In this document: positions 1,243 to 54,060 of the stretch, in pieces
Layout of the letters: each line of letters opens with the position of its first letter
How positions within the stretch are numbered: the first letter of the stretch is position 1
NCBI RefSeq assembly: GCF_003061515.1
Contig: NZ_CP028924.1
Span: 4,216,001 to 4,280,000 of the forward strand
DNA: 64,000 nt
Source: Colwellia sp. Arc7-D
GTDB lineage: Bacteria; Pseudomonadota; Gammaproteobacteria; Enterobacterales; Alteromonadaceae
Direction of reading: 5' to 3'
The notes under the pieces: model-generated
Seen by the model: only the letters and a program-made list of their open reading frames with translations
Database searches by the model: none
Told to the model about the DNA's origin: nothing
Translations under genes and position numbers: made by a program

Positions 1243-1684
1243 TAAAGGTAAACCTTTCACTATTTTGATGGCCGATGACGATGAAGATGATCGTTTATTA
1301 ACACAAGACGCCTTACAAGAAAGTAGAGTTCGCAATAACTTATATTGTGTAGAAGACGGCGTGGAGCTACTCGAATACCTCAGAAGAGAAGGTAAATACG
1401 CAGATCCTGCCACCTCACCAAGACCGGGGTTAATTCTGCTTGATTTAAACATGCCAAGAAAAGATGGCAGAGAAGCACTGAAAGAAATTAAAGCAGATGC
1501 AGAATTACAAAATATACCGGTTGTTATTCTGACCACTTCAGGACAAGAAGAAGATAAAGTTAAAGGATATAACTTAGGCGCGGCATCTTATATTACTAAA
1601 CCGGTTAACTTTGAAGGTTTAGTAGAGCTAATGAAAGCGCTAGGTAAATATTGGATAGAATTTGTTGAGTTACCCAATGAATAA
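1232..1684 (+). CDS. Rcp1-like single-domain response regulator
   Basis: This 150-aa protein is a receiver domain with no output domain. The acidic pocket is ADDDEDD near residue 15, the phospho-acceptor Asp lies in LLDLNMPRKDG near residue 70, and the conserved Thr and Lys appear in ILTTSG and ITKPVN. The long insertion before the acceptor (REGKYADPATSPRP) is typical of the Rcp1 family, which pairs with phytochrome-like and CHASE3 kinases. It starts inside the end of the upstream kinase gene and is followed 14 bases later by a hybrid kinase. The likely role is phosphotransfer between the two kinases or protein-protein signalling, not direct DNA binding. Confidence 0.92.
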   Translation: MLSSKGKPFTILMADDDEDDRLLTQDALQESRVRNNLYCVEDGVELLEYLRREGKYADPATSPRPGLILLDLNMPRKDGREALKEIKADAELQNIPVVILTTSGQEEDKVKGYNLGAASYITKPVNFEGLVELMKALGKYWIEFVELPNE

Positions 1685-1698
1685 ATTATAAAAAGCCA

Positions 1699-34594: not shown

Positions 34595-34759
34595 GTAGGG
34601 CTCCAAAATTTGGCTCAAAAAATATTTCATATTTTCAATAACATTAGTCACAGTTCACCCTTAATACTTAGTGAAAAGGAAGAGCAATATTTTAAATTGA
34701 GAAAGGTGTTGGTGGAATACAGTGCAAATAAACCCAAGACTGCATTCCACTATTATAAT

Positions 34760-36554: not shown

Positions 36555-39500
36555 TTAATTGTCTACCCCTACCTTATAGACCACTGTTCCTTCAGTATCT
36601 GGGTCGAGTTTTCCTGTCATTGTCCACGCTACTGAGCCAGAGCCATTGACAGCTGGCGCTTTTGTAACTGCACAATTACTAATAGATGTAGGTAGCGGAG
36701 TAATACAAGACGCGGACAAAAAGTGTGTAAACACGGGTGTTGAATCATAGACCACTATATTATCAAGCGGCTCCCGACTGGTATTGCGATAAATAATTGT
36801 ATATACCAAGGTTTCGCCAGGTAAAGCACTCGTCTTATCAACCGACTTAACAATAATTAAACCCGCCTCTGACGCTAAACCTACCGTGGTTAGATCTGAG
36901 CGCACACTGGTATTATTAGCGATATCTGCACCAGTAAATGCCATGTCAGATTTAACTTCAATAAGATATTGCGCATTAGGGTCTGCCATAGCGGGTATTA
37001 ATACTTTAGCGATGGTGCAAATTTGTTTATTTGTATCAGGATCAACTTGAATACTGCCATTAATCACCGGATCAGATGCTGCCAACTGACCATCACAGTC
37101 TTCATCTAAATATAGAATCGCCGACCAACCACTCATATCAGGTGTAGCTACCGGATTTATAATACTAAAACTAACATCACCAGGAGCCTCACTGGTAAAA
37201 GTATGAGGAAAAACAACAAAGCTTCCGGCAATGCCACTACGCTTATGATCTGGCGCAAAGGCTGGAGTTGCTATATCGCCAAAGGCAAGGTCGGTATAGG
37301 TCGTGCCTGCTAGTGCAGTGAAGCTAATTACATCGCGATCAGTATCAACTGTTGCGCCACTGTTTCCAACGGATTCTGTAACCGATATATAGCCACTGGG
37401 TGTCTGTGCCTGAATACTGATATTACTGTAGGTCGATGGCACCCATAACTCAAATCCTCCACTCGCATCGGTCAGTACGCTTTCCAATACGGTAGTACCG
37501 TCGAGAAGCTCAATGGGCACACTAGCACTTGCCTGCTCATCACCATCCAAAATACCGTTATATGCAGTACCTGCGCCCGCCCCGTTATCGACAAAAACAT
37601 TACCTCGCACAATACTTCCATTGTAGTCACCAAAATTTTGATTTGGAATGGTAACACCGGCAACGGTAACCTCACGTGTATTAGTGGTAGTTGAAACAGT
37701 ACCGCTAGGGTCTGACTCAGCAACCGGGCAGGTGGCTGGTGTCGGTACAGCCTCGCCATCAGCAGATATGATTTGGTAATCGCCATTTGCCACCGATGTA
37801 AATTCATAATAGCCTTCATTATTCGTCATGACCGAAATACAGGTATTATCGACTAAGTTGAACAACACAAGGGTACTATCTGCAGTTCCAATCTCGTCAG
37901 TGTTGAACTGACCATTATGATTTGCATCGCTATACAAGTAACCACTGACTATCACGCCTATAGTAGCAGGAACGAAGGTAACGCCATTGTTATTAAGTCC
38001 GGCGGAAGAAGTTCTACCAGCAGCAGCATCATCATCGCCGATTATAGTGGGTAAAAAAGCTGAACAGCGGCCACTGGCATCATCACTGGTGGTCATTTCC
38101 CAACAAGCACTGGTATTGCCATCAAGAGAATCACGGGTCAAGCTTAAAGACTGTCCCTTGCCTACGCCATCCAATTCTGCTTGAGTAACTGTGTTCCACG
38201 CGTTTAACGAAGCCGGTGGAGGGGTATTTAAATCATTTCCGGCTCCCCAGGCAATATAATCAATTAGGCCTAATGAAGAGTTAATTAACCACAACTCATC
38301 ACCATCACGGTTTAAGTTATCATTAACATCCATCCAATCTTGAAACCCAGCTGCGGGTGCCTGAGTATCACCTGAATTAGGCCCTAACCAAATAACCGCA
38401 TACTCACCATTAGCCAATGACGCGCCGCTTGGAAATATATAACTGGGATTATTTGCATCTCCGGTTAAAGAGTCGCCTCCATCGATATCATCAACATAAA
38501 TGTTGCCGTCTACCAATTGCCAACCCGCCAATGAAATAGGGCCGCCGGATACATTGCTGATTTCAATAAACTGATCGTTACCATTTTTTGTGCGGGTTAA
38601 CACCTCATTGATGATCACCTGACCTGCCAGAACGCCATATTGAATATCTGGCAATAATCCAAAATCAATATTGCTGATATCAGCTCCCGTTACAGTAATA
38701 GTGTTAAGGCCATTGGATGGCGTTCGAAATGCCCAAGCATTTGGAGCATTGGCAGTGACATCAGAAGAAAAATTATTGTCATCTACTACCAGTTGATAGC
38801 TACCATCAGGCACTCCATCGAAGCTATAAGCGCCGGTACTTGGGTCTACACTGGCTATTTCAACTGCATAATATGGGTCGAGATCAGAAACCAGTTTGAC
38901 ATAGGTGTTCTGATTGACCGCCCCCTCAGCATCGTGACTGCCGTTGTCGTTAGCATCGTAGTATACAAAGCCGCTGAGCTGGTTTAGTGTTCCCGCTGGG
39001 AATACTTCATACAACGATTTGGCAATATCACTGGTGGCATCAGGATCACCCTGATCAGAACCCAAAATCAAACCCACATTACTATATTGCCCTGATGCAT
39101 CTACCTGAGCGGTTATCACTAGAGTGGCTGTTTCACCGTTAAGTAATGAGAAGCTATCCCAAATTCCGGTGGTGGAATTGAATAAACCCGATGATGGCGT
39201 ACCACTGATGTTTGACAAATCGCTCGGCATGATATCTTGCACCACAATGTTTGTCGCCGAATCAGGGCCATTATTAACTATTTCCAAGGTGAAGGTGACC
39301 GTATCACCGATGGTGACTGAGGGATCATCAATTTGCTTGGTTAAAAACAAGTCGGCATTACCGCCACTCAGCACAGTTACAGCGTCATAGTTATTATTGG
39401 GGTTGGCATCAGATTGATCGCTAGCACTAATTTCAGCGTTATTACGCAAGGTACCTGTTTGACTAACATTTGCCTTAACTGTCATGGTTTGCGTAACACC

Positions 39501-42500
39501 TATTGCGACGGTACCAACTGTCCAGTCAATGGTGCCTGCACTGGCATTGTAAATGAAGCTACCACTAGTAACGCTAATATCAGTAGCCGGCACAGTCACT
39601 GATAACCCTGGTGTCATAGTATCTAGCAATTGTACACCTGTGGCTGTATCAGGACCGTTGTTTGTCACTTCAATGGTAAACTCCGCGGTATCACCCGGAT
39701 AGACCACACGATCATTGACAAAAGTCTTTGTCACGTTCAAATCAGCTTCGATAACATCCACCGTAGCCGAATCACTATTATTAGCTGTTATCGCATCGTG
39801 CAGATCTGAAGCGGTAACCGAGGCGTTATTAACCAACGTTGCATTACTATCAACGCGGGCTACAATCACCACCTCTTGTTTATTACCTGCACCAACCGCT
39901 ATAGCAGGGATATTCCAAGTAATAACACTACCACTAGCATCTAATGTTGCTGTGCCAACGGAAGTGGTGATATCTGTACCTGCATCGACAATAGTCAAAC
40001 CATTAGGCAACACATCTGTCACTACCACATTGGTTGCGACCTGCGAACCAAGGCCGTCAACCGAACCGTTGTTTTCCAGTGTTATAGTAAACTCTACTGA
40101 TTGACCGACTGTCAGAGGCGCACTGTTTGGAGCAACTGGAGCGGCACTCACAACTTTAGTCAATTGTAAATCCGCGTCAGGTACATCAATCACTGCCGAT
40201 TTTGGACTTTCAGGCGTGGGGTCTACTTCATTAAATGCAGTAATCTCAGCCGTATTAGTAATTTGCTCTGGATTGTCCACCTTTGCAGTAATTATTAAGT
40301 TTGCAGAACTGCCAAACGGTAAATCACCAATAGCCCAAACGCCACCGTTATAACTTCCCACACTGGCAGTCGCCGTTAACTGCGTAACACCGACGGGTAA
40401 TGTATCGCTGATCTGTAAGCCAGTAGCATCATCTGGCCCAGTCGTATTGTCGACAGTGATAGTGTAGGTCACCGTTTCACCGATGGCCGGAGTGGCGTTA
40501 TCAACCACCTTACTTAAAGCAAGATCCACCTGTGGAGCCGTTACTGGCGTTACCAAGGTAAAGCTGTCATTCACAGAGTTATTATCTACTCTTTCATTCA
40601 CTTCTGAATTGGTATATTTCACTGCCACCTGATTTGTCAGATCTCCAGTATCGGCAGGGGCAATAGCATTGATCACAATAGGCGGTAAGCTACTACCGTT
40701 TGCGAAAGTTTCGTCAGCTGAAGGTCGGTAATCACATGTAACCGTAACAGGTACTCCTGCGGTGAGACAGCTCCAAGCTGCATCGGTATTGGTCAAATCG
40801 ACAAATGTTACTTCTTCGGGCAAGGTATCAACGACTTGTAAATCAGTTTGCAATGTACCTGCCAATCGAATCGACAAGTCAGAAGAGCCGTTATTAACTA
40901 CGTCAATGACGTAAGAAAAACTGTCATTTCTGTCCAATTCTGAGACCGAAATTGGTGATGGCACTGTGGCATCTTTTGTGGCTATTTTGCTAACCCCAAC
41001 ATCAGCTTCAGGGCTACCTACCGAAGCGGTATCAAGGTTGTCAAACAGGTCAGGATCCACGACTTGAGGTACACCATAGCTACCGAACTCAAAAATGGTG
41101 GCGACATTCTCAACAAGACCGTCGTCTACTGTACCACCGAGTAGAAATGTAGCACGTTGATAAGTGGCATCAATAGTAAGCGCTACCGTTTCACCCACAT
41201 CTAACTGGGTAATATCCCACTGCAATACATTATTAGTTTGGGTTAATGCGACACTACCACCATTAGGCGTTGTGATGCCATTATCGGGACTGCTGACACC
41301 ATCAAATCCACTTTGTACTGAGGCTACATAAAGTGGAACCGGATCGGTTACACGTATGTCAGTTGCTGTGCTTGGACCATTATTGGTCAAGAGCAATGTA
41401 AACACGATGGCTTCATTATCAACCGGATTAGCATTATTAATTAACTTATTGATTTCCAATGCAGTAACTGCAGCTACTGTGCGGGTTGCTGAATCACTAT
41501 TGTTGGTGGAGTTAGTATCAAACGACTCTGGAGCATCCACTGAAGCAGTGTTGACGTAATCTCCACCCTCTGTACTCGTGACGACCAATTCAATGATATC
41601 TGCCGTTCCACCTGGGGCTAGCCCACCAGGTAGAGTACAAATAACGGTTCGAGTCGATATATCATAGCCACAAGACCAACCTATACCACTAGCACTGACA
41701 TATTCAGCCCCAACGGGAAGCACATCAGTCATAATTATTTCTGTCGAAGCTTCAGCGCCATTGACGTTATCTACATTCATAAAATAACTATAATCTTCAC
41801 CAGCGAGCACTTCCGGTTTTGGACCGATAAACTTATTGATGGCTAAATCAACTCTGGCTTTTACGCCGGTACTTTCAGTCGCACTATTATTGGCAGGGTC
41901 TACTTCGGTGGCGTCAGAACTGACTGAGGCCGTATTATTTACTGTGGTTGCAAACACCGGAGCGGTAACCGCTAAATTAATTGTCGACGTACCAACTGGC
42001 AATGAGGTTACGGTACAACTGACCACCCCTGAATTATTATTGCAACTCCAGCCGCTGCCGCTAGCTGAAACAAAGGTTGTATTGGTGGCAGTAAGATCAT
42101 CGATAACCACAACATTTGGGGCTGTGTCCGGACCAGCATTAACAACAGTTAGGGTATAATTGATCGTTTCACCCGTGCCAACAGGGTCAGCATTATCTGT
42201 TTTAGTAATCTGTAGGTCAGATAAAAAAACCGGATGAATTATTGCGCCTTTCGCATAGTAACTTGTGCGACCACACACATCAGAAACGACACCGCGAATC
42301 GTACATGGCATGTCAACATTCGTTTCAGGTGCAGTAAACGTAGTAGTGGCACCGTTAGGATTAGAAAAAGTGCCTCCACAAGTACTTTTCCATTGGTAAG
42401 TGTAAAGGCCACTTCCTTCAGTGACCGTAACTCCAAGCGATATAGCGTCACCTTCATCTATGTCGCTTGGCAGTTCAGCAGTAATCATTTCGATATTAGG

Positions 42501-43595
42501 TCGTTTCTCAACACCTGCATGCAACAATGAGCTGAAGTACACTCTTTGCGCGTTGACATCATCCGCTGTCCCTTTGGCATGACTGTGGCCGCCTTCATAC
42601 ATCACCATACCTGCATTGGAATCACCAAATGCTCTTCCCCAAGCAAGCTTTACTGCTTTGCCTGGGCTATTAGCGGGCACATCGGGGTGATCGGGGTCCC
42701 AAACCCCAATATTGGTTGTACTACGCCAGCCGCTTCCAGGCACTGGTAGGTAAATTTGTTCAGAGCCGTTTTCCGTAGCCAGATCTATTTTCCCCATATA
42801 TTGAGCCATTGGGCTATTCGGTATGGCTTGGCTATAAGGGAGTGTTCCTGCTTCGTGATCGCCAAAAATAATCAAGCCATCATTACTCAAAAAATGAAAG
42901 TTCTCGGTTGGATCAACTGGATTTTCTAGACTCTCAAGAACACTTACAGCATGACAAGCTGCCCACAGATGGCCGCCATTTTCGATAAACGGCAGCAAGT
43001 TTTGATGCGTCGCCCAGGCAGGATCAGCATGAGGCATGGCATAGAAATCATCACAGCTATTTAAATCAGAAGGTAAGCCCATGCGATAAGAGCTAGATGG
43101 AATTTCAGCGCTCTCATAATAAGGTACTACCAGTGATCCCCTGTCTAAATCGAGTACTGCATTGGGAAAAGATGTAATGCTGGATATAATAGGCGCTGTA
43201 AAACTGCTACTAGTCGGTGAACTAATCACCACACCTTTAGCCTGCCAGGTTGATAATATGGCGCTAGCCTCAGCAACAAAGTCCGCAGCTATGATAAATG
43301 AGCCACCCCGATAGTTGACACCATCAACGGTAAAATCAATGCCATCTTGAGCTTTAGTAGGGCTAATAGACCAATCGACCGGAATTTGCTGATTTACCGC
43401 TAACTCATAAATCAATCCATAGGGTTTCAAACCATTAGCTGCAGTTTGAGGAAGCACTCCCATGTTAATAATCACTGAGCCCGGAGGAAAAACTTTATCG
43501 GCTGCCAATACTTTAGGCAAGTATACTGAAAGTAAGACAAATAACGAAAAAGTCAGTAGCCTAATCAAATTAAGTGGGTTTGTTACGCCATTCAT
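36555..43595 (-). CDS. giant DUF11 / lamin-tail / SdrD_B surface protein (2346 aa)
   Basis: A signal peptide (LIRLLTFSLFVLLSVYLPKVLA) is followed by an unrecognised domain of about 400 residues containing GGHLWAACHAVSVLE and an Asp/Gly-rich stretch. From about residue 458 come roughly nine DUF11 repeats (pattern DLxITKTxxxxPVxxGExxxYTLTVxNxGPxxAxxVxVxD, variously spaced). Then come an SdrD_B-like domain (about 1537), a lamin-tail domain (VIINEVLTRTKNGNDQFIEI, about 1650-1790), further SdrD_B domains (about 1883, 1995), a calcium-type module (ILYLDEDCDGQL) and a last DUF11. No C-terminal anchor is seen. It is the last gene of the five-gene surface operon, 8 bases after the OmpA-type gene. The local base composition is richer in G+C than the flanks. 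Confidence 0.85.
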   Translation of the reverse strand: MNGVTNPLNLIRLLTFSLFVLLSVYLPKVLAADKVFPPGSVIINMGVLPQTAANGLKPYGLIYELAVNQQIPVDWSISPTKAQDGIDFTVDGVNYRGGSFIIAADFVAEASAILSTWQAKGVVISSPTSSSFTAPIISSITSFPNAVLDLDRGSLVVPYYESAEIPSSSYRMGLPSDLNSCDDFYAMPHADPAWATHQNLLPFIENGGHLWAACHAVSVLESLENPVDPTENFHFLSNDGLIIFGDHEAGTLPYSQAIPNSPMAQYMGKIDLATENGSEQIYLPVPGSGWRSTTNIGVWDPDHPDVPANSPGKAVKLAWGRAFGDSNAGMVMYEGGHSHAKGTADDVNAQRVYFSSLLHAGVEKRPNIEMITAELPSDIDEGDAISLGVTVTEGSGLYTYQWKSTCGGTFSNPNGATTTFTAPETNVDMPCTIRGVVSDVCGRTSYYAKGAIIHPVFLSDLQITKTDNADPVGTGETINYTLTVVNAGPDTAPNVVVIDDLTATNTTFVSASGSGWSCNNNSGVVSCTVTSLPVGTSTINLAVTAPVFATTVNNTASVSSDATEVDPANNSATESTGVKARVDLAINKFIGPKPEVLAGEDYSYFMNVDNVNGAEASTEIIMTDVLPVGAEYVSASGIGWSCGYDISTRTVICTLPGGLAPGGTADIIELVVTSTEGGDYVNTASVDAPESFDTNSTNNSDSATRTVAAVTALEINKLINNANPVDNEAIVFTLLLTNNGPSTATDIRVTDPVPLYVASVQSGFDGVSSPDNGITTPNGGSVALTQTNNVLQWDITQLDVGETVALTIDATYQRATFLLGGTVDDGLVENVATIFEFGSYGVPQVVDPDLFDNLDTASVGSPEADVGVSKIATKDATVPSPISVSELDRNDSFSYVIDVVNNGSSDLSIRLAGTLQTDLQVVDTLPEEVTFVDLTNTDAAWSCLTAGVPVTVTCDYRPSADETFANGSSLPPIVINAIAPADTGDLTNQVAVKYTNSEVNERVDNNSVNDSFTLVTPVTAPQVDLALSKVVDNATPAIGETVTYTITVDNTTGPDDATGLQISDTLPVGVTQLTATASVGSYNGGVWAIGDLPFGSSANLIITAKVDNPEQITNTAEITAFNEVDPTPESPKSAVIDVPDADLQLTKVVSAAPVAPNSAPLTVGQSVEFTITLENNGSVDGLGSQVATNVVVTDVLPNGLTIVDAGTDITTSVGTATLDASGSVITWNIPAIAVGAGNKQEVVIVARVDSNATLVNNASVTASDLHDAITANNSDSATVDVIEADLNVTKTFVNDRVVYPGDTAEFTIEVTNNGPDTATGVQLLDTMTPGLSVTVPATDISVTSGSFIYNASAGTIDWTVGTVAIGVTQTMTVKANVSQTGTLRNNAEISASDQSDANPNNNYDAVTVLSGGNADLFLTKQIDDPSVTIGDTVTFTLEIVNNGPDSATNIVVQDIMPSDLSNISGTPSSGLFNSTTGIWDSFSLLNGETATLVITAQVDASGQYSNVGLILGSDQGDPDATSDIAKSLYEVFPAGTLNQLSGFVYYDANDNGSHDAEGAVNQNTYVKLVSDLDPYYAVEIASVDPSTGAYSFDGVPDGSYQLVVDDNNFSSDVTANAPNAWAFRTPSNGLNTITVTGADISNIDFGLLPDIQYGVLAGQVIINEVLTRTKNGNDQFIEISNVSGGPISLAGWQLVDGNIYVDDIDGGDSLTGDANNPSYIFPSGASLANGEYAVIWLGPNSGDTQAPAAGFQDWMDVNDNLNRDGDELWLINSSLGLIDYIAWGAGNDLNTPPPASLNAWNTVTQAELDGVGKGQSLSLTRDSLDGNTSACWEMTTSDDASGRCSAFLPTIIGDDDAAAGRTSSAGLNNNGVTFVPATIGVIVSGYLYSDANHNGQFNTDEIGTADSTLVLFNLVDNTCISVMTNNEGYYEFTSVANGDYQIISADGEAVPTPATCPVAESDPSGTVSTTTNTREVTVAGVTIPNQNFGDYNGSIVRGNVFVDNGAGAGTAYNGILDGDEQASASVPIELLDGTTVLESVLTDASGGFELWVPSTYSNISIQAQTPSGYISVTESVGNSGATVDTDRDVISFTALAGTTYTDLAFGDIATPAFAPDHKRSGIAGSFVVFPHTFTSEAPGDVSFSIINPVATPDMSGWSAILYLDEDCDGQLAASDPVINGSIQVDPDTNKQICTIAKVLIPAMADPNAQYLIEVKSDMAFTGADIANNTSVRSDLTTVGLASEAGLIIVKSVDKTSALPGETLVYTIIYRNTSREPLDNIVVYDSTPVFTHFLSASCITPLPTSISNCAVTKAPAVNGSGSVAWTMTGKLDPDTEGTVVYKVGVDN

Positions 43596-43603
43596 AGTGC
43601 ATC

Positions 43604-44671
43604 CTACTCGTTGTTTTTTAACTTGGTTGACGGCTCTACTTTCAAATCAACCGATGAGATTTCGCTACGCTTTGATTGTTTTGGTAAAAGTATCAACTCC
43701 ACTCTACGGTTACGTGCTAAGTCTTCAAGGCTGTTTCCTTTTTGAACAGGGAACAAACTACCTACGGCTTTGATATTAATTCGCTGCCTTTCGACACCAA
43801 ATTCGGTTAACACCTTGGCGACACTTTCTGCTCGACGCTGAGAAAGCCGAAGATTATGACGATCTGCCCCTCTAAAATCGGCATGACCTATTAAAAGAAT
43901 ATTGTGGTTTGGATATAGAAGCAAGCTTTCTGCCATTCTTCTAACAATGCTTTTAGAAACATCATCAATACGGTGTTCATCAAGCGAAAAATGAACAAAC
44001 TTAGGCATGTTAGGTGTTGCAATAATATCGGCTTGAACACATTGAGATTGGCTATCAAGTAACGTGCGAGCATATCGTTCGGCTTGTTGTTCCGCAGCTA
44101 AAGCGTGTCGCCAGCCCTGTTCGAAATATTCATGTCCGACCCAAACCAATTGGACCTCTAAACGCGCTAAATCGCAAGAGACACATTGATTGTCTTTTCG
44201 GTCTTGCCATTGATCCACTAACTGCCAAAGATCTTTCCTTACCTTTTGGCTAGCATTTAAAATAGGTGTTTCGTAATGACGATTTTTTGTACCTTGCTCA
44301 AGCCCTTGGATAATTTTCTCAGCTTCCTGTCTTGCTTCGATTGCGACGCCCGTCCTGTCATTATCAGTATATTCAGTGTAGGCCATATCAAGCCAAGCAT
44401 TGGCTTTACAAAGTTGATAGTTATTGATTGTGGTACTTCCAATCCTTAGTCTGTGCAAACGCTCTTGTAAAGCGTGCAAGTTTTCTAGACTGTTCTGATA
44501 GGCACTGTCAGTAATCGTTACGCCTTTTTCAAATGCGATGCTTGCTGATTCATCAACCAATCTAGTAGTGTTAGAGCAACTGCTAAGCATAGACACAGCT
44601 ACTGTGGCTATAAGTATCAATGCCCGTTGCTGCTGAGTTTTCTGCCAAATAAGGTAAAGTCTAGTCATCAT
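43604..44671 (-). CDS. OmpA-family peptidoglycan-binding lipoprotein
   Basis: Start 44671 was chosen because AAGGAGA precedes it at ideal distance; an ATG at 44689 lies before that RBS. The 355-aa protein has a lipoprotein signal (MMTRLYLIWQ...SMLSSC). A helical middle part follows (LENLHALQERLHRL, MAYTEYTDNDRTGVAIEARQ). The C-terminal OmpA domain (about 240-345) contains NILLIGHADFRGADRHNLRLSQRRAESV and LARNRRVELILLP, with the peptidoglycan-binding Asp and Arg. It lies 20 bases after the barrel gene and 8 before the giant DUF11 gene, so it is inside the operon and probably links the surface assembly to the cell wall. Confidence 0.88.
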   Translation of the reverse strand: MMTRLYLIWQKTQQQRALILIATVAVSMLSSCSNTTRLVDESASIAFEKGVTITDSAYQNSLENLHALQERLHRLRIGSTTINNYQLCKANAWLDMAYTEYTDNDRTGVAIEARQEAEKIIQGLEQGTKNRHYETPILNASQKVRKDLWQLVDQWQDRKDNQCVSCDLARLEVQLVWVGHEYFEQGWRHALAAEQQAERYARTLLDSQSQCVQADIIATPNMPKFVHFSLDEHRIDDVSKSIVRRMAESLLLYPNHNILLIGHADFRGADRHNLRLSQRRAESVAKVLTEFGVERQRINIKAVGSLFPVQKGNSLEDLARNRRVELILLPKQSKRSEISSVDLKVEPSTKLKNNE

Positions 44672-44691
44672 ATATTTCTCCTTGCCCATGT

Positions 44692-47600
44692 TTATTTAAG
44701 CCAATCAAAGGCATCTTCATCAAATTTAAATCGTAAGCGAACATAAGCTCCTGAACTGCTGTAATCACTATCGGGTAGCTCTTTGTCTTGCACTGCAAAA
44801 AAGTTATAACCTGCCGACAACCAAAGGTTAGTGGTTAATAAGTAACCCACTTCGATACCAGCCATTTTGTTTTGGTTTTTAAAACCGTCAGAAGTGATCA
44901 CTCCTCCCATCACCGATACATCTACACGTTCAGTAACATCGTAAATAGCACGTAAACTCATTAAATGTGCTGTGTGATCACTGCGATAATCGATGCCTTG
45001 TTCTGTTACATATTTGCCCGCATAGCGACCACTTAAGGTCAGTGAACGACTAGGGTGCCAGTTAGCATGGGTAGTCCATATGTGTGCTTTGCGCATGGTG
45101 TTTTGGGTTTCATCATCTCTAATTTTGTATTCATAACGCCCCATACCAGATAACTCATTGGTATCTGTACTTCGATAAGCAATACCGGTACGTAAACGGT
45201 CTTCAGTCAGCTTGTCACTGGTATTTAAGTTGCGACGAATCGACAGAGTATTCTGTAATAAAGCTGACCAGCTATGATCCAATTTCATTGCCACGCCGAA
45301 GGTGTTTAATAAGCTCTCAGAAGTTTCACTGCGTCTCACCTCCATACGACCAGTACCTTTCCAGCGCTCAGAACCAGAATAATCAAGCCCCATTGTAATG
45401 GCTAAACTCTCACCTTCTTCACTTTCCTCAAGCGAACGAACCTGCTCAGAACTCAAATTTAAACTAAGACCCTCGGTTAGCTTCCATGTATTACTAATGC
45501 CTATAGCCGCCTCTGCTTCACCTCCACTAATAACATCTCGCACCCGATATTCGCTAAACACATGGCCATTATCTAGATAATCAAAATCGAGTCCAATCTG
45601 GGTGCTATTATTTCGAGCAGAAGCATCCAACCCATATTCACCACTGCTGCTTGAAATCAATTCGTGACGTGCATAAACTCGTCCTCGATTACTGACCTGA
45701 TATTCACCACCCAGTTGCGCTCGATTGCTATCAGAGTCAGCCAGATCCTGCTCGTACTCTGTAAACATACTCGCCTCAGGCATAGACTCTGGTTGCCAGG
45801 TTATTTTTGCCAAGCCGCTGGTCAATGCTCTACTACTCGATTTTTCATTATCGCTCTTTGCTACCGTCGAAGATTCGACATAGCGCATACCTAATTCTAG
45901 GCTTACCGAATCTATCAATTGGCTTTGCAAAGACAGTTTGCCGCCCTGACGTTTATCCTCTGTAATTACATCTTCGGTAAAACGCAGTTCACTCTCTAAG
46001 CGATTCTTTTTATTGATTCTATAACTAAGTTGGGCACCGGCTTCATCATGACCAGAGCGAACAGATGCATTAGGATTAATAAAATCTTCTTCACTTCTTA
46101 CTGCATAAATACGTGAATCTAACTTTTTACTCCTATGTTTCCATTCCAACCTAGCTGCATAACCTTCGCCTTCTATATCGGTTTTAGAATGTGCATACTC
46201 TACAATTAAGGTATCGTTATCGGTTACTTTTAGCGTTGTATTTGCACCACTTAGTTGATAGTTATTTTCAGGATTTTCATCGGTAATATGAGAAATCCCA
46301 ACCTCAACTTGGTCTGTTACTTGGAATTGACCATCTGCACCATAAACCCAATGTGTTTTTTGATCGCTATCTACTTCAAAACTAACGCGGATATAGACTG
46401 GATTAAAATCCGCGTCGATACTTGCAATTGGCTGACGGAAAACTAGATCACCGCTAAAGAAATCCAAACTGTAGTCTACAAATCGGGTCAAGGTTTTAGT
46501 CGATAAAACTAACGATGGCTGCTCACGGTCACGAACCAGTATTTCCACAATTTCACTCTGACGAACCATATTACGATTATCCAGAGGGTAGGGACCGGAA
46601 ATTCCCTTACCTTGGAATTCGCGAACAACCTGGCTAGTGTAGTCATACGAAGCAAATACATTAACTTCAACTTTAGAGGTTTGAAGGTGTCCCTGAAGGC
46701 CATTAAAAGTACGGTTGAAATTTGATAACCTTCTGGCTTCATTATTGGTGTTGGTACTGAAATCACCATACTGGAGGTATGAACGACCTTTATCAACGCG
46801 AACAAATAGCTTACTGGTTGACTGGGCTTCAAAGCCTTTAATTGAAGAGTCACCATACACAGGATAGAACTCATCAGGACGAATATCTCGGAAAAGTCGA
46901 GTATTCTCGTCACGATCTGAATCATAAGATAAGGTAAGTAAATGCTCACCCAGAATTTTTCCTTTCAAAAATAATGCTGCGCGCGCTCCTTTTTCGAGTT
47001 TATCTCCGCCGGAAAAGTTAAAGCTACCAATAGTTTCTTCGAAACCATCATTTTTAGAAGCAGGAGTAACTTCATCGCTACCTAATGTTCTCATTCCTAC
47101 AGCACCTTCAAGGATGCCCGATACCATTAATGGGCGTAGGTCAGGTAAAAAATCCAGTTCAAATGTGGACTCCGTGATACCACTACTAACCCGTATCAGG
47201 CTTTCTCCAGGCATATCTGGCGGTAACAATTCAAACTGTGCTGTACCACCTTCAATGAAGGTCTGAATGCCAGATTCTTTAGGGTCAAGGTCTTCTACAT
47301 CCCAAACTCCCAATGTACTTTCTAGTGTAACTGCCGTTCTTGCCGATACGGGTAAGTCTTTGTCATCTTTTAAAGACACGGCTAAAACAACGGGAGTATG
47401 CCCATCAGCTGGAGAACCATCAATTTCACTAGAAATAACCAGTCGGCCAAGTGAACCAGGAGCGGAAACCTGAATAATTTTTTCGCCACGTTGATTATCA
47501 AACTGATCAAGTTGAGCCAATTTCAGCTCATTTTTACCGGGCTGTAAGCGCACTGCGATATATTCCCAAGCTTCGACACCGGTACTGCTCATCACCACTT

Positions 47601-50577
47601 TCTGGCCAATACGGTTCGCGTCTTGAACTTCGCCGTTAACACTTAATTGTAGTGCGGCTCCAGCAACACCTTTCACTCGAATACTAAGCTGGCTGCTCGC
47701 CAAAGTATCATTGTCTTTCAAATCTATAAAACCGAGCGTTGCATCAAGTCCCTTAATTAACTCTCCAAGGTCAACCGAGTCGCCTTTTGCCGGTGCACTT
47801 GAAGGAATAAGTGACTTAGTTGGTAGTGTTGCTTTTTTGTTTAGCGACTTAAATCCTGTCATCTGACTTTCACCACTGACAATACCACTACTGGGTAAAC
47901 TACGACGGTCGCTAATGGTAGTTTCTGGATCTGTCTTTAGGTTTATTTTCAGTCTTTCTTCAACTTCAGCAACACGAACAGCGCCCTGTGCTCTACGTTC
48001 TTTAACTTCGCCAAGCATAGTTTTAGTACAAGAACCTTCTGCAAAATCCGCGCGGAAGAGTTCACCTCTTTTGACGTCAACAAAATTGCTGTAAGCATCA
48101 CCAGCGTTGCGGCTAGACAGATTTACCATTTCCGCATTATTTGGCAAAGTGGTTTTATCAATACTTAGCACATGAGTTTTAGCCTGTAAGCCAGCAAAGC
48201 TGTATTTTCCCTCGACGTCCGAGACAACATAACTACCATCTTGCAGATATAACCGAACGCCGGGGATGCCAAGCTCCTCGATTCCCTGCATACGGTCACG
48301 ATTACAATCCATATACACTTTACCAATAATAAAGGCTTCATCACTAAACACATCATCTTCGACTTTGACTTGGGCAACGCCTACATTGGATTCAGCGTTG
48401 TCATTAATGGCGCGAACTCGATTGATGCCGTCACCTCGTAGCGCACTATTTCTTATCTGAGTGCGATAAGTGAATGTGATTGAAGTATCACGCACAAACC
48501 AACTCACATTGTATTGCATATGTGAACCATCGGTAATCGTTGGGTCTGCAATCAACTCGCCGTTTTGCAAACTCGTACCGGGCATATAAATAAACCCATC
48601 AGGGAGAAAGTCATCAATATTTACATCAAATAAATCATAGATCGTGTTATTGGTTACTTTTACGGTATAAAGCACAGTTTCGCCGACAGCCGCAACATTA
48701 CGTGAAACAGATTTTTCAACGAACAATCCTGTCAATCCAGCCGGATCTAGAGGAATATCGTAATAGATAGGACCGGCTACTCCATTCATTGTAAACATAC
48801 CGAAATAAGATGCATAGTCATCTATTCTGCGTTCAGGAGAAAGATCTTCAGGCATAAACGTAGACGTAAATTGATGTCCGTCAGGTGAAATAACTAATAA
48901 GCGATATTCACCTTCAGGGACTACCGGAAATTCATAATAACCATTAGCATCGGTCATAGAATAGTTGTTTATTAAATTCATTTCGCTATCAAATACTTCA
49001 GGTACATAAACGGAGCCATCAGGATTTATTCCTTGCAAAACTACCTGAGCGTTAGCCACTGGCTGATTGTTACGAGAATCAAATACGATGCCAGCTGGGT
49101 CAACTAACAATCGGGTCTCCAATAGCACACCAGGACAGGTATCCCAACGAGCGGTTAAAAAGTCATTACGAGTTACTTCAACATTAAAGTTGTTGTCTAC
49201 TTGCTCATTTTCAGGCCAGGCTAATGTAGGTATTTCTTTAACCACGAAAGTACCTGTGTTTGGTCCAGTTTCGGTAATATAAAAGCCTCTTTCCAAGTCG
49301 CCTGACAGCTGGCTGCGCAAATCTATGGGGTAACTCTCAGCGACACTGGCATCAAGGTTACATGCCGCTGCTTCTACTTTTAAATACAACATATCACCAG
49401 CGTTTATAATTTCTTGTGTTCCGGTAAATGCAGAGTTCATGAAATCAATTTCAGCAGGCGCTGGTGGCTGCTCAACAACAACTTTATTACTGTCTACAAC
49501 AAACGTTTCATCCAAAGTATTAAAGTAAGAAGTAGCAATATTATTGATATCATTACCACCATTTTCATTCACTTTTACGCTAAATTTGACATCAAAACTG
49601 TAGCCAGCAGGGATTTGTTGGTAAGCAAAAACAACAGCATCAATCATGCCTTTATTACTAGGTTGTTTAGTTTGATATACGTGTTCACCTGTACCAGCTA
49701 GGTGATAAAGAACTTGAGATGTGCCAGCTTCTAGAATACTTTCAAACTGGGTACTAAGTGGGATATTATCGCGAATTAATACGCGACGATCAGAACTGTC
49801 ATCAATAATCACCTCAAAAGGGTCCATGCTCGCATTACCCACATTAGTACCGATTAATTGATATTCGATTATCTCGCCAGGTTTTCTTTCCTCTTGGTTA
49901 CTTTTTTTAAAAAAACGTAACACAGCACCATTTTCCACCCAAACAGTATCCATTATACTCGACATCAGCTCAGTTTCTGGAATAAATGCCGCCAGATAAG
50001 CTTCTGCATACATACCTTTTGTGCTGGTTGTTGGCACTTGACCAGTCAATAATAAATCAAGACTTGCATTAGGCGACAACATGTACTGTTCGCCCACTTC
50101 ATATTTAATATCTGCGCCATCAATGACGCCATTACTATTAGTGTCGATATAAATGACTAAACCTAACAAATTGTATTCATCGTTATCGCCATTTTCACAA
50201 TACATCTCAAATAGAGATTCTATATTGCCGGTATTGGTCAGGCGATGACTCATTACTACCCAATTGCCTTGAGTACTATGTTGTTGTCGATCGTTTTCTA
50301 ATTTGAATCCTCTTACAGGCATTACATTAACTGTCGTTGTGTTAGATGAAATTGATTCAACTCCACCCAATCTGGTGTGGTAATACCATGCTGTTGCTTG
50401 GTTAACTATAGTGCTTCCTGCCATTGGCATGTTAGACATTTTTCCAGAAGATGCCGACACTAAAGCAGAGGGAAGCAATGTTACCAAAACAATAAAAACA
50501 AATGAGCATACTAAAGCCGACAGAATTTTCTGTCTGCAAGCTTTAGTATGGTCATCTTTTACGTTGTAGTGATTCAT
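44692..50577 (-). CDS. very large DUF11/SdrD_B protein with C-terminal outer-membrane barrel (1961 aa)
   Basis: Start 50577 was chosen: AAGGAAAG precedes it and a signal helix follows (ILSALVCSFVFIVLVTLLPSA). Order: N-terminal module NQATAWYY...HRLTNTGN with a calcium-type site (YIDTNSNGVIDG), a DUF11-like domain, a region with carboxypeptidase-like beta domains (NAQVVLQGINPDG near 495; YYEFPVVPEGEYRL), a further DUF11 (about 600-720) and an SdrD_B domain (KVYMDCNRDRMQGIEELG near 755). A Ser/Lys linker and Ig-like domains follow (about 920-1180). The last ~770 residues are outer-membrane strands ending in AYVRLRFKFDEDAFDWLK. The barrel is far larger than a simple porin. It could export or hold the DUF11 partners; this is inference. 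Confidence 0.82.
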   Translation of the reverse strand: MNHYNVKDDHTKACRQKILSALVCSFVFIVLVTLLPSALVSASSGKMSNMPMAGSTIVNQATAWYYHTRLGGVESISSNTTTVNVMPVRGFKLENDRQQHSTQGNWVVMSHRLTNTGNIESLFEMYCENGDNDEYNLLGLVIYIDTNSNGVIDGADIKYEVGEQYMLSPNASLDLLLTGQVPTTSTKGMYAEAYLAAFIPETELMSSIMDTVWVENGAVLRFFKKSNQEERKPGEIIEYQLIGTNVGNASMDPFEVIIDDSSDRRVLIRDNIPLSTQFESILEAGTSQVLYHLAGTGEHVYQTKQPSNKGMIDAVVFAYQQIPAGYSFDVKFSVKVNENGGNDINNIATSYFNTLDETFVVDSNKVVVEQPPAPAEIDFMNSAFTGTQEIINAGDMLYLKVEAAACNLDASVAESYPIDLRSQLSGDLERGFYITETGPNTGTFVVKEIPTLAWPENEQVDNNFNVEVTRNDFLTARWDTCPGVLLETRLLVDPAGIVFDSRNNQPVANAQVVLQGINPDGSVYVPEVFDSEMNLINNYSMTDANGYYEFPVVPEGEYRLLVISPDGHQFTSTFMPEDLSPERRIDDYASYFGMFTMNGVAGPIYYDIPLDPAGLTGLFVEKSVSRNVAAVGETVLYTVKVTNNTIYDLFDVNIDDFLPDGFIYMPGTSLQNGELIADPTITDGSHMQYNVSWFVRDTSITFTYRTQIRNSALRGDGINRVRAINDNAESNVGVAQVKVEDDVFSDEAFIIGKVYMDCNRDRMQGIEELGIPGVRLYLQDGSYVVSDVEGKYSFAGLQAKTHVLSIDKTTLPNNAEMVNLSSRNAGDAYSNFVDVKRGELFRADFAEGSCTKTMLGEVKERRAQGAVRVAEVEERLKINLKTDPETTISDRRSLPSSGIVSGESQMTGFKSLNKKATLPTKSLIPSSAPAKGDSVDLGELIKGLDATLGFIDLKDNDTLASSQLSIRVKGVAGAALQLSVNGEVQDANRIGQKVVMSSTGVEAWEYIAVRLQPGKNELKLAQLDQFDNQRGEKIIQVSAPGSLGRLVISSEIDGSPADGHTPVVLAVSLKDDKDLPVSARTAVTLESTLGVWDVEDLDPKESGIQTFIEGGTAQFELLPPDMPGESLIRVSSGITESTFELDFLPDLRPLMVSGILEGAVGMRTLGSDEVTPASKNDGFEETIGSFNFSGGDKLEKGARAALFLKGKILGEHLLTLSYDSDRDENTRLFRDIRPDEFYPVYGDSSIKGFEAQSTSKLFVRVDKGRSYLQYGDFSTNTNNEARRLSNFNRTFNGLQGHLQTSKVEVNVFASYDYTSQVVREFQGKGISGPYPLDNRNMVRQSEIVEILVRDREQPSLVLSTKTLTRFVDYSLDFFSGDLVFRQPIASIDADFNPVYIRVSFEVDSDQKTHWVYGADGQFQVTDQVEVGISHITDENPENNYQLSGANTTLKVTDNDTLIVEYAHSKTDIEGEGYAARLEWKHRSKKLDSRIYAVRSEEDFINPNASVRSGHDEAGAQLSYRINKKNRLESELRFTEDVITEDKRQGGKLSLQSQLIDSVSLELGMRYVESSTVAKSDNEKSSSRALTSGLAKITWQPESMPEASMFTEYEQDLADSDSNRAQLGGEYQVSNRGRVYARHELISSSSGEYGLDASARNNSTQIGLDFDYLDNGHVFSEYRVRDVISGGEAEAAIGISNTWKLTEGLSLNLSSEQVRSLEESEEGESLAITMGLDYSGSERWKGTGRMEVRRSETSESLLNTFGVAMKLDHSWSALLQNTLSIRRNLNTSDKLTEDRLRTGIAYRSTDTNELSGMGRYEYKIRDDETQNTMRKAHIWTTHANWHPSRSLTLSGRYAGKYVTEQGIDYRSDHTAHLMSLRAIYDVTERVDVSVMGGVITSDGFKNQNKMAGIEVGYLLTTNLWLSAGYNFFAVQDKELPDSDYSSSGAYVRLRFKFDEDAFDWLK

Positions 50578-50712
50578 CTTACTTTCCTTCGAATGTTTTT
50601 TGTGAGTGAGAATGCTCGCTTGCAGCTTGTTAACTGCCAAGCGAGGCTTATTCATTGTTGTTCGCAGTGGGGCGAAATCCGCCCCCAATTTACCTAGGAG
50701 TAAACTTGCTCC

Positions 50713-53430
50713 TTAAGGGTTATCATTTACCTGAACGGTAAACGTCAGCGAAGCATTTTCAGTAGGATTTAGCGTTGAAATAGTAGCGACTACCGTTCCA
50801 GCTGAACCATTGGTTGGCGCAGTTACATTCAATGCTCCAGTACCTGAAGAAGATACTGATGCAGGACAAGAACCAGCAGCGTCAGAACAATCTTCATAAC
50901 TCGTAAAGTTAGGTGTGGAATCATTGATGTTTAAGTTTGTTACTGACTCAGAACCGCTGTTTGAAGCGATAATCTGATATGCAATACACTCACCTGGAGA
51001 TGCAGCCAAGACGTTAGGGCCAAAAGAGCCTTCAACAATACCGTCACAGTTTGCGTCTAATGCTTGCTGCTTGTTCAGTACAACGTCACCCGTAATGACA
51101 GTGGTAATATCCTCTGCACTATCGGTTGGGCCACCTGAAAAAGTTGCAGTCAAAGTAGAAACATTAGTTTCACCAGGATCAGCGCCTGCTGGAGATATGA
51201 CTTTAATTAATAGAGGAACACTTCCACCAGCAGCAATACCACCGAAGTCGTTAATATCATCTACAACTGTGTCAACACCTGCATCAATGACGCCATTGTT
51301 GTTCGAATCGTAGTAGATTATCGATGCCCAACCGCTGTTTGAATCAGTGTTAGTTGCCACTAAAGAACCATCAGTTTCTGCAACGTTTCCGTTGTTAACT
51401 AGTGTGTGTGGATAAACTTGAGAACCACCAGGGAAAACCTGACCAGCACCATTTATATTCAACTCAACAGAACGTAAAGTATTGGTAGTTACGGCGTCAT
51501 GTTTTATGTCAAATGCACCAGATGTTGAAGACTGAGCACGAAAGTAAATATCAACTGTGCCCGGAGCCTGACCATCAGGTGTAGAAACAGTTGCTGTTAT
51601 TTCAAGGTTTTCACCGGCTCTGATTACACCAGTGTTGGTGATCACATTCCCGCTAGTGTCAGTAAAAACAATTGACCAACCTTCTGGCAGTGTAGGAGTT
51701 GTAAAATCATTTGCTTCGTCAAAAGCTAGGTTATAGCTATCTGCTACAGCACTGGTATTTGCAACAAACAAAGTAAAGCTTGTTTGCTCACCTGGCTCAA
51801 TAGTATTAGTGCTAACAGCAGCCGTTTCAGGGCCTACACCTTCACCTAATGCACCCGCATCACCAAATGCCGCATCATTCGTTAAATCGACTGAGCTAGC
51901 AGTAATTTCATTTAAATGATCAGTGACAAAATCAGACTGAGTTGGATCTACAGCTGAAGTAGCCGTTAGCTCAACATCATAACCAAGACCATTGTTGTTA
52001 CCTGAAGCTCCAATCGGCAATGTAGCGACTAAAACTACTTCAAGTTCGTCGTCAGTGGAGACATTAGTTACATCTGAATCCAATGGACCAGTATCAGGAA
52101 CACCGTCACCATTTGTATCAGTCAATGGCGTTAAGCCATCTGCTTGATAAAGCTGAAAGCTAGTTCCAACCGGAAAGGTGCTGTTTCCAACGGCCAATTC
52201 AAAGGTATCTATCCCATTACCATTGTTCATAATGATATTGGAAAATTTAATGGTGCCACCTTGATTTGCCGCATCGATTTCAGTAACTACATCGTTAGCT
52301 GAACCATCATCGTCAGAATTTGAAGCACTGTTTGTACCTTCTGAGTCAGTTGCTACAACAGCTGCTGACTGAAGTACGGTATAAGTAGCTGTATTGGTAT
52401 TTACTGGAGCAAGTACCGCAGCACCATCGTAATACTCATAAGATGCTAAGTTATTGATATCGCCTGGAGACAAGTCACTATCTATGCTCACTCTGAAAGT
52501 AACTGTACCACTGCTGCCTGGTGCAACCGATGCAATAACTACTTGAATGTCTTCCCCTGCAATTGGATTAGCAACACTTTCGTACGAATAGTCGATTCCT
52601 AAAGGATCATCATTTGCACCATCAGTATCAGTTAGAACACCATTGGTAGCGCCACTCCAACTACCACTATTGTTGGCGTACATCATTCCTTCTGGCAGAA
52701 TATCTTTTAACGTCACATTGGTTGCTGTTGCATTACCACTGTTGGTATACGTCAACACCACATCAAATGCAGCTAAACTTGGCGATGGACCTGATGACAC
52801 GCTCATTGATTTAGTGACTTCAATAACCGCATTGTCGGAAACACTGATCGTATCTGTATTGAAATCAAGAATGGTTGGTTCAAACTGACTTTTTGCTTCA
52901 ATTGTGAGTGTTTCAACATCGGCTGAAGTTACTGTTGAAGGAACCTGAGCAGCAACTACAATCCCATATTTTTCACCGGCCAGCATTGCTGGGGTGACGC
53001 TTATAGGATTAAAGTCATCTGGAATACCATCTAAATCAGCATCCGCATAAACTTCAAGACTGTTGAAGGTGATAGTACCGGTATTAGCATCCAGATCTGT
53101 TAGGTCATAAATGTCATTACCATTACCGGTGTTGGTTATTGTATGAGGGAAGTATACCGTGCCCCCAACAGCAACCAATTTGCTAGTGTCAGCTTCAATA
53201 TCAACACCGGCAACTTGCTTAACGATTGTTTCAACCAGGTTAGATGTCGCTGTGCGTGTCTCGTTAGTGCCATCAGTATAGGTAGCTGTTGCTTGGTTAC
53301 CGACCACAGCGCCAGCTGCAGGTGCAGCCGCCATAGCAGTAGTGGACATGCAAAGCGATGCCCCTGCAGCGAGAATACCTGTTGTCAGGGCACTCCGCTT
53401 GAATGTATTGTGATAATTATATTTTCTCAT
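50713..53430 (-). CDS. DUF11-repeat secreted protein (905 aa)
   Basis: RBS AGAGGTAAC precedes the ATG. A signal peptide (SALTTGILAAGASLCMSTTAMA) leads into a module GNQATATYTDGTNE...FPHTITNTGNGND that matches the N-terminus of the large barrel protein. Calcium-type sites YADADLDGIPDD, DTNGDGVPDT and YDSNNNGVIDAG recur at about 125, 455 and 720. DUF11 domains lie between them (VTKSMSVSSGPSPSLAAFDV, LNKQQALDANCDG). The protein ends with a DUF11 domain (LTFTVQVNDNP) and no anchor. It is the second gene of the five-gene operon and is probably a structural subunit of a surface fibre or layer. Confidence 0.85.
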   Translation of the reverse strand: MRKYNYHNTFKRSALTTGILAAGASLCMSTTAMAAAPAAGAVVGNQATATYTDGTNETRTATSNLVETIVKQVAGVDIEADTSKLVAVGGTVYFPHTITNTGNGNDIYDLTDLDANTGTITFNSLEVYADADLDGIPDDFNPISVTPAMLAGEKYGIVVAAQVPSTVTSADVETLTIEAKSQFEPTILDFNTDTISVSDNAVIEVTKSMSVSSGPSPSLAAFDVVLTYTNSGNATATNVTLKDILPEGMMYANNSGSWSGATNGVLTDTDGANDDPLGIDYSYESVANPIAGEDIQVVIASVAPGSSGTVTFRVSIDSDLSPGDINNLASYEYYDGAAVLAPVNTNTATYTVLQSAAVVATDSEGTNSASNSDDDGSANDVVTEIDAANQGGTIKFSNIIMNNGNGIDTFELAVGNSTFPVGTSFQLYQADGLTPLTDTNGDGVPDTGPLDSDVTNVSTDDELEVVLVATLPIGASGNNNGLGYDVELTATSAVDPTQSDFVTDHLNEITASSVDLTNDAAFGDAGALGEGVGPETAAVSTNTIEPGEQTSFTLFVANTSAVADSYNLAFDEANDFTTPTLPEGWSIVFTDTSGNVITNTGVIRAGENLEITATVSTPDGQAPGTVDIYFRAQSSTSGAFDIKHDAVTTNTLRSVELNINGAGQVFPGGSQVYPHTLVNNGNVAETDGSLVATNTDSNSGWASIIYYDSNNNGVIDAGVDTVVDDINDFGGIAAGGSVPLLIKVISPAGADPGETNVSTLTATFSGGPTDSAEDITTVITGDVVLNKQQALDANCDGIVEGSFGPNVLAASPGECIAYQIIASNSGSESVTNLNINDSTPNFTSYEDCSDAAGSCPASVSSSGTGALNVTAPTNGSAGTVVATISTLNPTENASLTFTVQVNDNP

Positions 53431-53508
53431 TTTGTTACCTCTTTCTGTTTTTAACAGTTCGTTTATTGGCTAGGTTTTGTACTTACTAAATTATTTATTC
53501 CATGACAC

Positions 53509-54060
53509 TTAAAGATCTAAATTGCCCTTTACGCGCACTCGGTATGTGTATTGAAAAGAGTCATCGGGTTTTAATTCGTCAAAAGAACTCCAACGAATTT
53601 GGTGATACTGAGAAGGAGGAACAACTTCCTGAACCTCTTTACCATTTGCATCTAATGCGGTGCGATACAAAGGTTCAGAACTCCAAGTGATCCCCATATC
53701 AATTGAGGCTTCGAGTTCTGCATTTGATGCTGAAGAAGCACTCATAGCTACATACTCAACCTCTTCAGGTATAGGTCCCAAAACTTTCAGGTTATTGATT
53801 ACTTCATCACCTTCATTTGAATAGAGCAGTCGATATTCAATAACTTGTCCTGGGAGAACTGCCTCGGCAGCACGAAAAGATTCCTTTCCGTTTTCATCTG
53901 CAACCACTAGAAGGGCTTCGAGGTTTCCCTGAAGTTTAGGTGCCGCTACAACGTTACCGACCCAAGCCATTAACACCACGGTTAATAAAGCGTTTGCCCA
54001 CTTTCCTGAAGTGGCATATTTGATTTTTCTTACAAATTGCTGATTGTCATTTATATTCAC
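53509..54060 (-). CDS. small DUF11-like exported protein, first gene of the surface operon
   Basis: This 183-aa protein uses a GTG start, supported by AGGAG nine bases upstream. A signal helix (ALLTVVLMAWVGNVVAAP) is followed by one DUF11-like domain (VLPGQVIEYRLLYSNEGDEVIN, LGPIPEEVEYVAMS) ending FQYTYRVRVKGNLDL. The domain resembles the C-terminal domains of the 905-aa and 2346-aa proteins of the same operon, so it could cap, initiate or chaperone their assembly. It lies 78 bases before the 905-aa gene. The long AT-rich region upstream must hold the operon promoter. Confidence 0.82.
   Translation of the reverse strand: MNINDNQQFVRKIKYATSGKWANALLTVVLMAWVGNVVAAPKLQGNLEALLVVADENGKESFRAAEAVLPGQVIEYRLLYSNEGDEVINNLKVLGPIPEEVEYVAMSASSASNAELEASIDMGITWSSEPLYRTALDANGKEVQEVVPPSQYHQIRWSSFDELKPDDSFQYTYRVRVKGNLDL

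Follow-up and report, generated by a model that had tools for sequence, protein, structure and literature searches.

In the type IX secretion system, as outlined in the sections of PMC7463736 available to us, cargo proteins carry a conserved C-terminal domain, the 36-stranded SprA barrel has a pore of ~7 nm that takes folded cargo, and an outer-membrane lipoprotein, PorE, binds peptidoglycan. DUF11 (CLIPPER) domains build stalks in cell-surface adhesins, e.g. B9T28_05395 of Acinetobacter silvestris (PMC12617251, in part), and many giant adhesins are described as having a stalk that reaches the C-terminus, with no known anchor, and that possibly holds other surface proteins (PMC9210967, likewise in part). 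The present analysis concerns a cassette of five genes (g1 to g5) at positions 36,555 to 54,060 of a 64,000-nucleotide stretch of Colwellia sp. Arc7-D (hereafter the window; contig NZ_CP028924.1, positions 4216001-4280000 of a 4.3 Mb single-contig genome). In outline, the cassette resembles what is described of the type IX system in having a giant barrel, a cargo C-terminal domain, and a wall-binding lipoprotein. There is an even chance that its five products make up one outer-membrane translocon and mooring for giant fibrillar adhesins that carry a common tail.

Five tightly packed genes on one strand had been claimed here by the original prediction, which was made from the DNA letters alone, and the open reading frames (ORFs), all on the minus strand, bear this out, with intergenic gaps from g1 to g5 of 78, 24, 2, and 8 bases. 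The features, in amino acids (aa) where lengths are given and with CTD denoting a C-terminal domain, are as follows.

53509..54060, minus strand: g1, a secreted protein of 183 aa with one DUF11-like domain (ORF, Pfam)
50713..53430, minus strand: g2, 905 aa, with an N-terminal domain like that of g3 and a C-terminal domain like that of g5
50716..51174, minus strand: CTD of g2 (134 bits in its own genome; the sequence is part of the model)
44692..50688, minus strand: g3, 1998 aa from TTG or ~1961 aa if started at the ATG of residue 38, with SdrD_B, CarboxypepD_reg, DUF11, and immunoglobulin (Ig)-like domains and a C-terminal barrel
49822..50604, minus strand: N-terminal domain of g3 in common with g2 (g2 N-terminal profile, 113.5 bits on residues 29-289)
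44695..47136, minus strand: predicted giant outer-membrane barrel, g3 residues 1185-1998 (AlphaFold2, structure comparison)
43604..44689, minus strand: g4, 361 aa, lipoprotein-like, with a conserved N-terminal domain (residues 68-208) and an OmpA domain (residues 228-333)
36555..43595, minus strand: g5, 2346 aa, with head, DUF11 stalk, lamin tail domain, SdrD_B, and CTD
42216..43499, minus strand: head of g5, residues 33-460
36846..38018, minus strand: constant tail of the g5 cargo, about residues 1860-2250
36558..36848, minus strand: CTD of g5, residues 2250-2346 (g2 CTD profile)

According to Pfam, DUF11 is matched in g5 at 503 bits over nine stretches and in g2 and g3 at 30.0 bits each, and SdrD_B in both g3 and g5. 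The lamin tail domain of g5 scores 55.6 bits and the OmpA domain of g4 57.5 bits. The domain content given in the original prediction is thereby upheld except for g1, where the DUF11 match (16.5 bits) lies under the curated cut-off of 24.6. Its length of about 1961 residues for g3 corresponds to the ATG at residue 38, which is the likely start. A lipobox-like stretch in g4 and signal-peptide-like starts in g1, g2, g3, and g5 were judged by eye. As also predicted, no type I, II, or V secretion gene was detected among 14 neighbouring window proteins scanned with Pfam, one of which (57566-58336) had no Pfam match.

The five genes form a real unit. A protein search with the g3 barrel yielded 920 proteins at E <= 0.001, and among the 120 matches listed nearly all (the query's own entry aside) were 40-49% identical over almost the whole barrel region, under generic names such as DUF11, SdrD B-like, or carboxypeptidase regulatory-like domain protein, TIGR01451 repeat, large repetitive protein, and hypothetical. 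A scan of species genomes with the same barrel gave 516 loci, of which the best 80 by barrel similarity were analysed; counts of loci hence describe loci bearing a g3-type barrel and not bacteria at large. ORFs were called mechanically, with starts that are too long in L085, L095, and L096 and a wrong following ORF taken in L049. Upstream counts were restricted to the 59 of 80 loci in which the start of the barrel gene is intact and is preceded by 4.5 kb or more of sequence. Here, g1 and g2 together precede the barrel gene in 56 loci, 55 of them in tight order (g2 is split in L072), the g1 family being found in 57/59 and g2 in 56/59. The order is not seen in L092, where a short g2-like ORF accompanies g1, nor in L100 and L113. 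The full order of five genes with a true OmpA domain was present in six loci of different lineages, i.e. MAGs (metagenome-assembled genomes) of Nevskia (L051), a gammaproteobacterium (L056), Desulfuromonadales (L059), and Geobacteraceae (L063), together with Perlucidibaca aquatica (L077) and Rivibacter subsaxonicus (L085). A proteobacterial (L054) and an Opitutae MAG (L089) have all five genes with a g4 that has no OmpA domain, so that five-gene loci of both kinds represent 8/46 loci with enough DNA on both sides. Furthermore, a cargo gene bearing the CTD occurs in 37 of the 52 loci that extend 8 kb or more downstream. It lies downstream of the barrel gene in 24 and upstream in 11, and in the other 2 it is an ORF call overlapping the barrel gene. 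Neighbour clustering, a coarse test swamped by antisense ORFs, brought out no further conserved gene. A search for the same order in other Alteromonadales had been proposed; the genes are indeed kept together, in distant lineages and not in other members of Alteromonadales. The genes g1 to g3 were also found in Acinetobacter, Polaromonas, Gallionella, and other records. In Acinetobacter nectaris (L105), two further g2-like ORFs of 886 and 126 aa, the shorter one cut by the locus end, lie upstream of the cassette on the opposite strand (positions 1-3060, minus strand).

The C-terminal barrel of ~770 residues that had been proposed for g3 is supported by two AlphaFold2 models and by structure comparison, which predict a barrel of outer-membrane type and not a soluble beta domain. 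The first model (residues 1000-1998, 40 sequences) reached a predicted local distance difference test score (pLDDT) of 77.6 and a predicted template modelling score (pTM) of 0.60, and its first 185 residues are Ig-like. The second model (residues 1185-1998, 86 sequences, 24 of them from the type-2 barrel family described below) reached a pLDDT of 83.3 and a pTM of 0.77, with 44 strands, 39 of at least 8 residues, in 814 residues. From model residue 246 onward, 32 strands follow as a regular hairpin series; the preceding strands, eight longer and four short, are predicted with less certainty, and part of them may form a plug or loop. Hydrophobic alternation between inside and outside in the predicted strands was 0.43, compared to at most 0.36 in 1000 shuffles. 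Structures listed as similar to the second model were nearly all membrane barrels (OccK3, AlgE, SlpA, FimD, PapC, maltoporin, porins, and the mitochondrial VDAC and TOM40), and in 8 of 50 comparison rows the alignment reaches all the way from the first strand to the final one, which a closed barrel would be expected to show. Foldseek matched the first model to many barrels including LptD, MtrB, and SprA chains, with template modelling (TM) scores of at most 0.22 by query length (0.13-0.15 for SprA), and its Ig-like part to glycoside hydrolases, likewise with low TM-scores. No structural template covers the whole g3 barrel, sequence searches of solved structures with g3 or the barrel profile gave nothing significant, and VIA-align gave arc-level matches. 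Because of these low Foldseek scores and arc-level matches, g3 is not assigned to a barrel family, and a family missing from the match lists is not thereby excluded. We take the g3 C-terminus as a single predicted barrel that exceeds the matched ones in size and has an approximate strand number.

Several described systems place a barrel beside Ig-like surface domains, as in the cassette, i.e. classical and inverse autotransporters and chaperone-usher pili. The structure comparison includes two ushers, FimD and PapC, and some g3 homologues are listed with PF02369 and PF09134, which we take to be Big_1 and invasin D3. The barrels of autotransporters have 12 strands and those of ushers 24; that of g3 is predicted to be larger. 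In contrast to type V and usher proteins, g3 matches neither an autotransporter nor an usher domain of Pfam at E up to 0.1. Usher and chaperone matches were likewise absent from g1 to g5 at that cut-off and from the 14 neighbours, as were RTX repeats and ABC exporters of type I from g1 to g5 and the neighbours scanned. Judged by its domains, the cassette is not a type I, type V, or chaperone-usher system. It is improbable that g3 is an autotransporter-like protein whose barrel exports its own N-terminal DUF11/SdrD_B half, with g1, g2, and g5 secreted separately and assembling on it. Such a design would match the passenger-like N-terminal half followed by a C-terminal barrel, but it sits poorly with the missing Pfam domain and with L100 and the type-2 loci, where DUF11 is encoded by a gene of its own ahead of the barrel gene.

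The type-2 barrels, which are more distant from that of g3, are a large family of 1520 proteins at E of 0.001, named hypothetical or TonB-dependent receptor among the 120 matches listed. In the Arc7-D genome, a second locus (G000:C1:520839-539000; L041, L042) encodes a DUF11 protein of 4798 aa with a C-terminal OmpA domain, followed by a type-2 barrel protein of 1259 aa without a DUF11 arm. A giant ending in OmpA directly precedes the barrel gene in L044, L046, and L047. In L045, the giant and barrel are accompanied by an OmpA gene of their own, in which the g4 N-terminal domain is missing. Only giant and barrel are present in L043, and L100 adds to these a g4 without OmpA. In ten genomes of named carriers, the type-2 query found only g3-type barrels, judged by place and frame length. 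Since DUF11, barrel, and OmpA parts are fused in differing combinations, the window included, they would appear to serve one task. A giant with a wall-binding end and a stalk of surface type must cross the outer membrane, which makes the adjacent barrel a candidate pore.

The g2 protein shares domains with both g3 and g5. The g2 N-terminal profile matches g3 in 63/87 barrel loci. A profile of the g2 CTD, based on the C-terminal 150 residues of 61 g2 proteins (that of the window among them), matches 35 of 58 proteins encoded after the barrel, and in 33 of the 35 the best stretch is the extreme C-terminus. For the window g5 it scores 40.9 bits at the C-terminus versus at most 10.9 elsewhere in the protein, internal DUF11 repeats included. 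Searched with a model built jointly from 26 ends of g2 and g5 (the window's two included), the Arc7-D genome yields 134 bits for the g2 end and 127 bits for the g5 end and no other match above 28.4 bits, despite its DUF11 protein of 4798 aa. As judged from these profiles, g2 and g5 end in the same, previously undescribed CTD, which is new here. The claim that no known sorting signal is present holds in Pfam and NCBIfam at E up to 0.1; what it missed is this common CTD, a candidate sorting or docking domain. In a sample of 398 genomes from the phylum, the CTD was found in 34 at E <= 1e-10, and 29 of these 34 also encode the barrel. In each of the six genomes whose CTD exceeds 80 bits, the barrel scores more than 1200 bits. 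The CTDs of the five genomes without a barrel reach 43 to 47 bits only.

The g5 cargo combines a constant tail with a variable head. Among 33 complete cargo proteins (window g5 included) of 851 to 2488 aa, the last 480 residues align in 528/528 pairs, compared to 87/528 for residues 21-420, in a loose search (E 1e-3, no composition correction). The window g5 aligns with 32 of 32 partners by its tail and with none by its head. Single linkage placed the heads in groups of 24, 5, 2, 1, and 1, with some merging, as a stretch of 420 residues from the start frequently extends into DUF11. The window g5 head was unmatched in ORFs of the other loci examined at E 1e-5 and has no Pfam match; in a large database it matches 334 proteins, on other, unrelated stalks. 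Several of the listed relatives carry PF18962, which we take to be the type IX sorting domain, and one is named 'Secretion system C-terminal sorting domain'. The adhesin domain CshA_NR2 was present in one of ten other heads scanned. By analogy, head exchange on a constant tail is the pattern of display systems for adhesins or effectors. With 2346 aa and nine DUF11 stretches, g5 has the length and repeated stalk of fibrillar adhesins, and the g5 cargo is of this known kind. Its repeats show weak signs of covalent stiffening, namely seven stretches that fit a loose, self-made Lys-Asp-Asn spacing pattern and a match of 62.6 bits to the isopeptide-forming fimbrial domain TIGR04226 of NCBIfam. As described in the available sections of PMC12617251, B9T28_05395 has a signal peptide, head, and repeated DUF11 stalk like g5 and an OmpA-like end that resembles the giant of the second Arc7-D locus; no barrel partner is described for it there. 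In contrast, g5 has the CTD instead of an anchor of its own, and anchor and barrel are separate conserved genes.

The conserved gene set, barrel fold, common domains, constant tail with variable head, and fusions in relatives are computed results; the mechanism that we infer alongside them would begin with export of the components by Sec, as the signal-like starts read by eye would indicate. The single very large barrel of g3 would serve as conduit and mooring, with g5 passing or inserting through it. In g5, an exchangeable head, presumably adhesive, on a DUF11/SdrD_B stalk would be the cargo, recognised or held by the constant tail and the CTD as signal. With its g3-type N-terminal domain and cargo CTD, g2 would link barrel and cargo and help to capture g5, g1 would be a small accessory subunit, and g4 would contact the assembly by its N-terminal domain and fix it to peptidoglycan where an OmpA domain is present. 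The predicted size of the g3 barrel fits the type IX translocon of ~36 strands, and g3 may also pass cargo. Unlike the type IX system, the Arc7-D genome has no match to the SprA family (TIGR04189) at E up to 10, neither Pfam nor NCBIfam shows a type IX sorting domain in g2 or g5 at E up to 0.1, and no motor or sortase gene was found among the neighbours scanned. The best explanation, by analogy, is that the cassette works like a type IX system without being a member. If the barrel is a translocon, SprA would not be the only answer to its transport problem, and g3 would represent a second one, unrelated by the sequence tests made here.

A rather unlikely alternative is that the barrel is an anchor only, i.e. 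that g5 and g2 are exported along some other path and are moored to the barrel, whose DUF11/SdrD_B arm lies outside, with g4 reaching to the wall. The N-terminal domains common to g2 and g3 are in keeping with such a mooring, barrels can anchor without transport, and stalks reaching the C-terminus may bind other surface proteins (PMC9210967, in the sections available). Against it, the cassette loci show no recurrent gene for a different exporter (by the coarse test above), the predicted barrel is far larger than anchoring needs, and type-2 barrel proteins have no DUF11 arm. For the preferred translocon and mooring, the cassette would constitute a concrete partner set for adhesins without an anchor, consisting of giant barrel, linker, wall tie, and common tail, and would give a role to a protein family that bears generic names (as seen among the 120 matches listed) in >900 records.

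The wall tie had been attributed to the OmpA protein of the cassette, and this proved to be an optional element. Considering the 69 loci with at least 1.5 kb downstream and a search within 3 kb, a g4-family gene follows the barrel gene in 26 and has an OmpA domain in 22. The g4 N-terminal domain (residues 68-208 of the window protein) is present in all 27 g4-family genes among the 80 loci, four of which (L054, L089, L100, and L113) have no OmpA domain. This suggests, at the level of domain content, that the N-terminal domain of g4 contacts the system while wall binding is optional. The surface-system interpretation of the original prediction is therefore partly supported, in that a single assembly fits while the OmpA tie is optional and the system is not a trait of Alteromonadales.

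Several findings weigh against a translocon with tail-tagged cargo. An OmpA domain is absent in 47/69 loci, and a CTD cargo was not found in 15/52, partly owing to giant ORFs running off the sequence. The barrel is also associated with DUF11 by itself, being present in 40 of 58 DUF11 genomes, and among DUF11 genomes the CTD occurs in 25/40 with and 5/18 without a barrel; given this control, the extra specificity of the CTD is modest at a loose cut-off. Three genomes (G629, G395, and G566) have strong barrels of 980-1018 bits and no CTD match at E 1e-10. Furthermore, the strand number, pore opening, and position of the g3 N-terminal arm are uncertain in the models, and no energy source or chaperone was seen in the cassette.

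Possibly, though on balance we lean slightly the other way, the cassette belongs to a widespread, undescribed secretion/display system, with a single-chain translocon of 32 to 40 strands that would be among the largest predicted and a pore wide enough for folded Ig-type domains. It would extend over Pseudomonadota and, going by how the records are titled, verrucomicrobial, desulfuromonadal, and nitrospiral MAGs, with a second, very large type-2 branch (Kangiella, Lysobacter, Stenotrophomonas, and others) serving DUF11 giants, some of them plugged into the wall by a C-terminal OmpA domain. There is a real chance that it is a separate secretion system. Searches of the open-access PMC literature brought up no description of the five-gene unit, subscription papers and preprints lying outside the search. 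A paper on type 11 secretion (PMC12282271), linked to DUF11 only through the similar name DUF1194, was rejected as unrelated to the cassette, DUF11 itself being mentioned once and in passing in the sections available.

Close to home, the cassette is rare. Among 17 genomes of the genus (Arc7-D included), g3 was found in none of the 16 congeners, and a type-2 barrel in Arc7-D and two others. At the level of the order, 24/295 genomes (Arc7-D included) match g3 somewhere, and only Arc7-D matches over the full length. In the phylum sample, 58/398 genomes match the barrel model at E <= 1e-10, type-2 barrels included. It is very improbable that the cassette forms an S-layer-like or outer-membrane-to-wall scaffold instead of an adhesin fibre. 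The model for such a scaffold is SlpA (SDBC) of Deinococcus, which also has a large outer-membrane barrel and gives a partial structural match (367-446 model residues aligned at 10-11% identity). A structural layer would hardly be expected to be missing from 16/16 congeners, and the differing heads, the wide range of cargo lengths (851 to 2488 aa), and the CshA_NR2 domain also speak against it.

The insertion site is bounded by the following two genes.

54871..56703, minus strand: glmS (SIS and glutamine amidotransferase domains)
34760..35458, minus strand: gene of a PEP-CTERM protein

In congener G301 (L139) the site is empty, the glmS end lying ~0.6 kb from the sequence before the PEP-CTERM gene, versus about 19 kb in the window. 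In G296 (L140), the glmS site holds two other giant surface-type genes on the other strand, of 2241 aa (OMP_b-brl) and 904 aa (GEVED), and G307 (L141) has a third arrangement. Gain of the cassette at a variable site next to glmS would explain these arrangements most simply. G+C content per 2-kb step is 0.41-0.46 in the cassette versus 0.32-0.41 in the rest of the window. An island of attTn7 type was considered, as the cassette lies 3' of glmS, and rejected, with no tRNA, no Rfam match, and no transposition gene among the scanned neighbours. The site 3' of glmS (window 34760-54870) varies within the genus. A protein of 1708 aa with nine SdrD_B stretches and DUF7467 (window 29525-34651) adjoins the cassette, and both it and the PEP-CTERM protein are also present in the congeners L139 and L140.

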